NCBI GenBank assembly: GCA_004357015.1
Contig: SMXE01000038.1
Span: 1-11,522, forward strand
Direction of reading: 5' to 3'
Origin: Caldithrix sp.
Lineage (GTDB): Bacteria > Zhuqueibacterota > Zhuqueibacteria > Oceanimicrobiales > Oceanimicrobiaceae
Length of the DNA stretch: 11,522 nucleotides
Part shown: positions 546-4,537 of the stretch, in pieces
Layout: each line of letters begins with the position of its first letter
How positions within the stretch are numbered: position 1 is the stretch's first letter
Notes under the pieces: generated by a model
The model's input: only the letters and a program-made list of their open reading frames with translations
The model's database searches: none
What the model was told of the DNA's origin: nothing
Position numbers and translations under genes: made by a program

Positions 546-818
546 TTACTCCTTGATCAGGTTCATTTCAAGGATGAGTGCTTCGATCTCGGAGTCGGTG
601 AAGATGGTCTCAAAATCAGCGATCTTCGACCGCAGCCGCATGAGTTTGGGGCCTTCGGAGCGACTTTCTTGAAAATACGAACGCACCCGGTTGCGCAAAT
701 TCTTAGCCTTCCCGATATAGATGACCTTGTGGTTCTTGTCCTGAAATAGATAGCAACCGGGCTTCTTTGGAACGTTCTGGAGTTTTTCCCGCAGAGGGTT
801 GGGAGAAACGGACTGCAT
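546..818 (-). CDS. uvrC: UvrC N-terminal GIY-YIG domain, truncated by in-frame TAA
   Basis: This 90-residue ORF is the GIY-YIG nuclease domain of UvrC, which makes the 3' incision in nucleotide excision repair. The first motif is PGCYLF (residues 20-25; usually PGVYLF) and the second VIYIG (32-36). [14 protein letters not shown] follows, holding the catalytic lysine/arginine region, and [11 protein letters not shown] carries the expected metal-binding Glu (about residue 79). The ORF ends LIKE-stop, whereas UvrC proteins normally continue with Y-K-P-R-Y-N. The TAA at 546-548 is one base change from TAC or TAT (Tyr), and UvrC sequence resumes at the next codon. The start is ATG at 818-816, and a TAA lies in frame just upstream, so no longer start is possible. 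There is no convincing Shine-Dalgarno. If translated as is, the product is a lone GIY-YIG domain with no UvrB-binding or 5' nuclease part, so repair incision would be expected to fail. Confidence 0.9.
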
Positions 819-2363: not shown

Positions 2364-2654
2364 TTACAAAATCCTGGCAAAAATCTCTTCAAACTCGTCT
2401 TTGGACATCGTCTGCTGTCCGCTGTCATCCACCTGCACTGTGGTGTTCCTGAATTTGAAAGTCACTTTCTTCCCGACTGCCAGATAGCAAGCAGCGCCGT
2501 TAAAGTTCTGAGCAAAGTCGAAGTACGCCTGACTGCCGAACATGAGTTTGAGCGTTCTTTCAGTAGCGTCCTGTGCTGTGTCCACCCAAATCCCTGAATC
2601 ATCGCGTATAAATGTTTTTCCAAGCGCATGGCGGATCCCCCCCCGATGACCCAC
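2364..2654 (-). pseudogene. C-terminal part of the VIT/VWA protein, in a shifted frame
   Basis: This 96-residue frame carries the natural C-terminus of the upstream VIT/VWA gene. From residue 7 it reads IRHALGKTFIRDDSGIWVDT, then LKLMFGSQAYFDFAQ and YLAVGKKVTFKF. That fits the usual ending of VIT/VWA proteins (K-T-F then G-x-W-V-D-T, then S-x-A-Y-F, then an A-x-G-x-x-V strand), as I recall the family. It has no start signal of its own; the apparent ATG lies inside the upstream coding sequence. It joins the upstream frame at the G8 run (plus-strand C at 2637-2644): one extra G, or two fewer, would fuse the frames into a protein of about 724 residues. It is followed by the operon terminator. 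It is best read as the 3' part of one frameshifted gene, not a separate small gene. Confidence 0.82.
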
Positions 2655-4537
2655 AGGTCAGGTGTGTCGCTCAACCTGAAGTGGCTTCTGAACACGCTCG
2701 TCATGACAGCCTCTTTCCCTATCTGTGCTGTGGGCAACTTCCTGGGTGGCATGCCGTATTGCCCGGCAAGTTGCGAAATCTCAGCGTCGAGATCGTCGGT
2801 GGGGGACTCAAATCGCTCCTGTTCGAGCAGGAAGCCGTACTTCCGGACGCCCCACACTCTCGAAACAAAAGCGTGGTGCAGTACCCTGTCCTCCGTGCTG
2901 ACAGGAAATGCGAACTCGGTTTTGCCTGTAGACAATTCACCCGACACCCGGACTCGTGCGGTTCCGCGGTTCCTGTATCTTCCGACAATGCGCACCTGCT
3001 CGCCTTTGTGAAGATCCGGGATTGTCTCAGGATAGATATCATACACTGCCATGTCGCCGAAATCGACCTTCGGGTCCATCAGCACCGGGTCTTTGATGCG
3101 GTCGAACATCTCAGTTATTGCGGCTGAGATGTCCGAAGCGCGTTCCACATAAATTGAAAGGCCCTTGCTGTCATAGGCAATGCCGTCCAGCAAATCCACG
3201 TGGACATCCTGTCCAAGCCCGAAATTAAATATCTTATATCCACGCGTGTTCAGGCGATGGGCATTGGTCCGAATCTCGGCGATGTCAGTAACCCCTACGG
3301 TCGGCAGACCGTCTGTGATGAGAAAGATGGTACTGGCCTTTGCGTGACCCCCCTTCACGTTCAGCGCTGTCAGCAAAGCTTCGTTCAGGTTTGCCCCTCC
3401 CCTGGCCTCAATCCCGTTGATAAAGTCAAGAGCCTCGTCCCCGTGGTCCACGGCACGAACCAGATCCTTCCCGAAAAGCCTGAGCTGCGTGTTGAAAGTT
3501 ATGATATTGAAGCAATCCTCATCGTTCAGGCTGCCGATGGCATACTTCAAGGCAGATTTGACTTGCTTCAGCTTTTCACCTTTCATGGAGCCGGACACAT
3601 CGACCAAAAAAAGAATGTCCTTGCTCACAATTCGGGACGCGGGCAGATTGGCTGTCGGTGACAGCGTCAGCATGAAATATCCATCCTGACCATTTTCCGG
3701 AGGGTAGGAGACAAAATCCGCGCTAACAATTCCCGTCTCTGTACCGAACAAAAGGACAAAATCATGCCCGAAGCTATTTTCACCGCTATAGGAAATCGTG
3801 GCACGGTTGGATCTCTTTCGTTTCACATTGATCGCATGACTGGGCGAGTAAATATTTATCAAGGCAGAGTCCGTGTTCAGCGCCACATCAACTTCCACTG
3901 GAGCTGTCCTGCCATTGTAAGAAGCGGCGTCCCTTATCTTATTGAAGGCATAAAGAGGAGGCTCGGCTGTGGTGGTGATTTGGGAATCGTGACCATGACG
4001 CAGGTGGTTTCCAGGCAGGGGAAAAGTCATGCTTGTCAGGCTGCCCGTGCGTTCCAGAACTTCCACGAACATGAATGTCAAAGTACGTTTTTCATGTGAG
4101 GAGAAAGGCGCGAGTTTTACTTCGAATAGTCTCTTGTCCACCAGGGCAAGCCAGGAAGGATCCCCGGTAGAACGAACACGTTCTTGCAGCACCTGGAACG
4201 ATTCATCCGGCGGCAGCAGCCTGCCCTCAAAAACAGCCCCTCCCGACTTAACGGAAAAACCAGAGACCTCACCTTGGGATAGCGGAAAATAGTAACTCGC
4301 CTTCTTGCTGTCGCCGGCAGGATTGAAGAACGTTTGCTCAACATCAAATTTGGCGACCTGGTTGGTGACGGAGACCTTCGTCTTGTTGCGGAGAAGATTC
4401 AGGTTTCCATTGGGCGTCGCATCCGAGACTATAAATCCCTGGCTGAAGGCATCGGCGCCGAACATGCAGGACAAGAGTAGGGTGGCGAAACATCCGCTAC
4501 GACGAATTTTGTTCATTCTTTGTAGTACAGAAATCAC
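2462..4537 (-). CDS. Exported VIT and VWA domain protein (frameshifted near the 3' end)
   Basis: This is an inter-alpha-trypsin-inhibitor-like protein. After an N-terminal signal peptide (hydrophobic FATLLLSCMFGADAFS) comes a VIT domain (about residues 44-160, with KVSVTNQVAKFDVEQTFFNP and YYFPL). Then comes a VWA domain (about 305-480) with DVSGSM at 313-318 and ITDG with Asp409. VWA domains bind metal and protein ligands. The usual MIDAS Thr of G-G-T-N is replaced by Ala382 (codon GCA). A beta-rich segment follows. From about residue 634 the frame is wrong: after the G8 run the remaining residues to 2462 look unlike a protein domain, while the conserved C-terminus continues in the frame ending at 2364. 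The outer start is GTG at 4537, 3 bases after the anti-sigma stop. ATG at 4516 gives a cleaner signal peptide (MNKIRRSGC...) and may be the true start; neither has a good ribosome binding site. It is third in the sigma/anti-sigma operon, so a role in envelope sensing or surface binding is inferred. Ligand unknown. Confidence 0.88.
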   Translation of the reverse strand: MISVLQRMNKIRRSGCFATLLLSCMFGADAFSQGFIVSDATPNGNLNLLRNKTKVSVTNQVAKFDVEQTFFNPAGDSKKASYYFPLSQGEVSGFSVKSGGAVFEGRLLPPDESFQVLQERVRSTGDPSWLALVDKRLFEVKLAPFSSHEKRTLTFMFVEVLERTGSLTSMTFPLPGNHLRHGHDSQITTTAEPPLYAFNKIRDAASYNGRTAPVEVDVALNTDSALINIYSPSHAINVKRKRSNRATISYSGENSFGHDFVLLFGTETGIVSADFVSYPPENGQDGYFMLTLSPTANLPASRIVSKDILFLVDVSGSMKGEKLKQVKSALKYAIGSLNDEDCFNIITFNTQLRLFGKDLVRAVDHGDEALDFINGIEARGGANLNEALLTALNVKGGHAKASTIFLITDGLPTVGVTDIAEIRTNAHRLNTRGYKIFNFGLGQDVHVDLLDGIAYDSKGLSIYVERASDISAAITEMFDRIKDPVLMDPKVDFGDMAVYDIYPETIPDLHKGEQVRIVGRYRNRGTARVRVSGELSTGKTEFAFPVSTEDRVLHHAFVSRVWGVRKYGFLLEQERFESPTDDLDAEISQLAGQYGMPPRKLPTAQIGKEAVMTSVFRSHFRLSDTPDLWVIGGGSAMRLEKHLYAMIQGFGWTQHRTLLKERSNSCSAVRRTSTLLRTLTALLAIWQSGRK

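Follow-up and report, generated by a model that had tools for sequence, protein, structure and literature searches.

Spurious pseudogenes are a recognized feature of draft metagenome-assembled genomes, where isolated disruptions appear in conserved genes of which intact copies are on record. Genes of the nucleotide excision repair protein UvrC (excinuclease ABC subunit C) encode two incision activities; PMC7835731 assigns the 3′ incision to the GIY-YIG domain and the 5′ incision to the C-terminal domain. PMC1564403 describes an asparagine of the GIY-YIG domain as characteristic of the UvrC lineage, and also covers stand-alone GIY-YIG proteins of the Slx1-like kind.

The uvrC gene described here resembles UvrC in its domain order and in its sequence, with 100% identity over the 271 residues flanking the interruption to P0002, an intact UvrC of 617 residues in the protein database, and differs from it by a stop at codon 91 found in this assembly only. 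With the spurious pseudogenes of draft genomes it shares isolated disruptions in conserved genes, a fragmented bin and recorded intact copies, whereas the change in uvrC is of a single codon and the other disruptions here are frame switches. Its first piece is a small lone GIY-YIG domain, as in the Slx1-like proteins, but this piece is identical to the start of a full UvrC, and its six matches to solved structures are all UvrC N-terminal domains. The stop is present in the assembled sequence and is most likely no feature of the species.

Genomic Context

The window (the whole stretch of DNA analyzed, 11,522 bases) is the entire contig C189 of a draft genome that totals 2,216,483 bases over 268 contigs, with an estimated completeness of ~70%. 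In the genome collection, the four best named relatives of this genome belong to candidate division KSB1. The genes on the minus strand of the window are, in order, those for a pcrA/uvrD-like helicase (truncated where the contig ends), a long TPR protein, an ECF-type sigma factor with an adjoining zinc-finger protein, a VIT/VWA protein, nadC, a glyoxalase-fold protein and finally uvrC, which runs past the contig edge and so sits at a contig break. Scanning of the window gave no RNA family at gathering score and no tRNA; a suppressor tRNA was thus not found within the scope of that scan. The features discussed are listed in Table 1.

Table 1. Pieces of uvrC and disrupted genes in the window and in other contigs of the same genome; positions without a contig or locus label are those of the window.
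Feature	Position	Strand	Basis
uvrC N-terminal 90 codons, GIY-YIG domain with incomplete C-terminus	549..818	-	Pfam PF01541; PDB UvrC 1yd6/1ycz; 100% to P0002 residues 1-90
In-frame TAA, uvrC codon 91; tyrosine in P0002	546..548	-	Sequence read; comparison with relatives and P0002
uvrC codons 92-272 (UVR motif), no stop up to the contig end	3..545	-	Pfam PF02151; 100% to P0002 residues 92-272
uvrC C-terminal part, contig C5	L114:8949-9797	-	PF08459 match; alignment; 98.9% to P0002
VIT/VWA-domain protein gene, frame switch ~2650-2656	2364..4537	-	Two frames align with intact P0122
Probable frameshift, coxB	L115 (G000:C63) ~1215	-	COX2 46-96 in one frame, 78-113 in the other (Pfam)
Probable frameshift, histidine kinase	L131 (C17) ~2337	-	His_kinase in one frame, HATPase_c in the other (Pfam)
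Probable frameshift, bcp-type peroxiredoxin	L138 (C66) ~2436	-	AhpC-TSA 2-48 and 47-123 across frames (Pfam)
Probable frameshift, nucleotidyltransferase-like gene	L136 (C52) ~3336	-	Weak match of one piece (E 0.025), none of the other

The Interrupted uvrC Gene

The first-pass annotation had reported a TAA at 546..548 that splits uvrC, and this was seen again on the minus strand (548-546), with 90 codons before the stop and 181 stop-free codons after it in the same frame. The gene starts at 818 and its 90-codon open reading frame (818-549) terminates in MNLIKE. The piece before the stop matches the GIY-YIG domain PF01541 with a Pfam E-value of 7.8e-10 over domain positions 2-70 of 78, and the UvrC structure 1yd6 with an E-value of 6.7e-24, while the piece after the stop carries the UVR motif (PF02151, Pfam E 2.7e-8). 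The in-frame ATG at 398 that had been noted earlier is indeed the earliest ATG, GTG or TTG past the stop, and lies 50 codons downstream of it. An uninterrupted uvrC reading frame is absent from the window contig and present in P0002.

When the same genome was searched for the RNase H-like domain of UvrC, a single match was returned, which lies terminally on contig C5 (PF08459, E 1.1e-55). This contig holds the last 283 uvrC codons, open up to a stop at the natural UvrC end and corresponding to residues 335-617 of P0002. The ends of C5 and of the window share no overlap, with ~62 uvrC codons missing between them. The first-pass annotation had suggested looking for further disabling mutations to the left of the window, and none were found in the C-terminal 283 codons, the ~62 codons in between being unassembled. 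With P0002 intact and all of these readable C-terminal codons open, the gene does not appear to be a pseudogene fixed in the species. In P0002 the HhH region is also recognizable (PF12826 and PF14520 listed; PDB 1kft over residues 555-606).

Since the first piece ends short of the asparagine of the UvrC lineage and a restart would lose a further 50 residues, both pieces are unlikely to act as UvrC does. It had also been proposed that another uvrC or cho be sought. In this 70%-complete bin, the match on C5 is the single one to the UvrC RNase H-like domain, and the sole other GIY-YIG match is a frame of 80 codons on contig C63; a back-up nuclease was accordingly set aside as a candidate, and the missing 30% of the genome could hold one. 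For uvrB, a C-terminal fragment alone was found at the end of contig C9 (L201, 14035-14718 of 14723), and for uvrA there was no match above the cut-off in the bin. Loss of the whole pathway was considered and rejected, as the uvrB fragment and the absent uvrA fit an incomplete bin and say little.

Intact Copies of the Disrupted Genes

A profile search was conducted with the UvrC of a relative and the three pieces as queries, in which the 8000 candidates sharing most words were scored and the best 120 listed. P0002 has a tyrosine at codon 91 and is identical to the 90-residue and 181-residue pieces, with three differences in 283 residues to the piece on C5, while the runners-up among the 120 listed reach 75.0, 79.6, and 77.7% for the three pieces. 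P0002 is thus far closer than the next best listed homolog and is most likely the UvrC of the same species, so that P0002 and the window contig evidently belong together at the species level. It stands for a cluster of 13 sequences at 90% identity, from which P0002 itself was the one inspected, and its record carries no source, meaning that its sample may not be independent of this one. The 90-residue form was found once, in the window contig itself, with a limit of E <= 1e-30 and 258 candidates of similar length, remoter families falling beyond that limit; within the same bounds there was no natural stand-alone short GIY-YIG form other than this one.

The residue at the interrupted codon had been described as a conserved tyrosine. 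This holds among near kin, with tyrosine in 117 of the best 120 listed homologs (histidine in the other 3) and in 7/7 genomes of the same family, to which the 181-residue piece is 72-78% identical. It does not hold in the wider set, where leucine is commonest: across 105 distinct relative loci the residues were L (45), Y (39), H (13), F (4), N (2), I (1), and K (1). None of the 109 relative loci, among which 105 are distinct, has a stop at this codon, which places the TAA beyond chance.

The VIT/VWA gene on the same contig is likewise disrupted. Its counterpart P0122 is an intact protein of 716 residues, whose name refers to a candidate division KSB1 bacterium and which represents a cluster of 17 sequences. 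The first frame is 98.7% identical to residues 1-621 of P0122 (8/621 differ) and the second frame 94.8% identical to residues 621-716 (5/96 differ), and P0122 is evidently a copy from the same or nearly the same species. As P0002 and P0122 are both intact, neither disruption of the window contig is shared by a copy from the same or nearly the same species. An eight-C run lies on the plus strand at 2637-2644 (G on the coding strand), and the frame switch falls just ahead of it in the gene.

Frame Disruptions in Other Contigs and Relatives

Screening for disruptions used a coding-frame model in which frame switches and stops are permitted but penalized, followed by filters, and candidates were then assessed by eye, unblinded. 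The first sample comprised 43 contigs of this genome (367,591 bases) and 20 control stretches from four better-assembled relatives (396,001 bases). After filtering, 10 candidates remained in the genome under study, namely the uvrC nonsense codon and nine frame switches, against five in the controls. By eye, five of the nine frame switches were judged real, those in the genes of the VIT/VWA protein, coxB, the histidine kinase, the bcp-type peroxiredoxin and the nucleotidyltransferase-like protein, and none of the five control candidates, which resemble gene ends. The contrast of 6 to 0 gave a binomial p of 0.012, and with the window contig removed it was 4 to 0 (p 0.050).

The second sample added 20 contigs of this genome (163,392 bases) and 20 stretches from three more fragmented relatives (253,026 bases). 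It yielded a single unclear candidate in the former and eight in the latter: three at N runs, two gene ends and three real-looking frameshifts, all of them in G004, an assembly of 710 contigs with 8% contamination. The probable frameshifts of G004 are at ~2033 of L223 (minus strand, an RHS-like gene) and at ~79 and 192 of L231 (plus strand, a contig-terminal outer-membrane-like gene), the gene names being assigned by eye. With both samples pooled, the contrast was 6 to 3 (p 0.17), or 4 to 3 without the window contig (p 0.38). Scattered frame disruptions occur in fragmented assemblies, including this genome, and the pooled contrast gives no significant sign (p 0.17) that fragmented relatives fare better than this genome.

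Other than the uvrC stop, no nonsense codon was kept in the 63 contigs of this genome (530,983 bases) or the 40 control stretches (649,027 bases), and an error of this type would therefore be uncommon in this genome. In a simpler screen, for stops flanked by coding-like sequence, the uvrC stop ranked fifth in the set from this genome; 12 other high-ranking stops were dismissed by eye as gene boundaries or non-coding frames. A single-strand frame-shift Viterbi gave 123 events in this genome and 103 in the controls and was too noisy for use. ABC-transporter domains with a stop made up 0/19 matches in this genome (G000), and one such match was seen in G002, where, as for the relatives generally, the count is among the matches listed.

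Origin of the Stop Codon

Three readings of the stop had been offered at the outset, a base error, a recent nonsense mutation and a functional split, and it is the first that we favor. We put the probability at about 70% that the TAA is an error of assembly or sequencing in the consensus and no real base of the sampled cells. This is favored because P0002 is full length and matches the flanking residues throughout and the C-terminal part at 280/283 positions, because the 90-residue product was met once and on the window contig, and because the same contig has a second disruption in a gene that is intact in P0122. The further frame disruptions in other contigs of this genome point the same way, those of coxB, the kinase and the peroxiredoxin being backed by Pfam matches over two frames, as does the location of the gene where a contig breaks off, in a bin of 268 contigs that is 70% complete. 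It is weakened by the lack of a second nonsense codon in either the genome or the control screen, and by a pooled contrast of 6 to 3 that is not significant. A real nonsense mutation of very recent date, confined to the sampled strain or to a minor fraction of its population, is a less likely but tenable source of the same codon, and would leave UvrC truncated and excision repair lost or weakened. Strain variation in this species is real (3/283 in UvrC; 8/621 and 5/96 in VIT/VWA), making a private allele possible, and a protein identical to the intact copy on both flanks, with the C-terminal 283 codons open, is what would be expected of a young mutation; the same isolation of the nonsense codon in both screens that counts against a base error would also suit a private allele. 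Against such an allele stand the restriction of the truncated form to a single contig (search at E <= 1e-30), the broken VIT/VWA gene beside it, for which P0122 is intact, and the scattered frame switches in conserved genes, which point to assembly quality.

A functional split, with a lone 90-residue GIY-YIG protein and a remainder started from the ATG at 398, is very improbable. The first piece does hold most of the GIY-YIG domain and an in-frame ATG is available for the second, but the former stops short of the UvrC-type asparagine (residue 96 of P0002, present in 120/120 listed homologs) and the latter would begin with 50 more residues lost and, by eye, has no Shine-Dalgarno-like stretch ahead of it. 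The intact same-species uvrC, the occurrence of the short form here only and the lack of a stop among the distinct relative loci likewise argue against it. Just as improbable is read-through of the TAA or its recoding as an amino acid, although the variety of residues seen at codon 91 in relatives (Y, L, H, F, N, I, and K) indicates a tolerant position at which read-through could yield a working protein. That recoding was unlikely had been argued from ordinary genes ending in TAA, and the counts bear this out, as TAA terminates 66 of the 247 open runs that span 300 codons or more in the 63 sampled contigs. Read-through is further opposed by the tyrosine of P0002, by the relative loci without a stop and by the screen, which kept no other within-gene stop. 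Even taken together, a split or recoding has a very slim chance of being correct, and it is slightly more doubtful still that there is a living strain with a truly split uvrC, making two proteins or joining the pieces by read-through of the TAA.

Implications

Where a single fragmented bin shows a nonsense codon in a conserved repair gene, comparison with other assemblies of the species is called for before one claims that repair has been lost. Were the stop a real allele, UvrC would be lost at the level of the strain, which would be of limited interest. Overall, the stop is nothing unusual and is most likely a base error of the draft or else a rare private mutation. On the favored reading of a base error, this would be an ordinary uvrC with a single wrong codon in the consensus of this draft, and the real gene of the species would encode a normal UvrC, with GIY-YIG, UVR, RNase H-like, and HhH regions, that may be expected to make both incisions of nucleotide excision repair.
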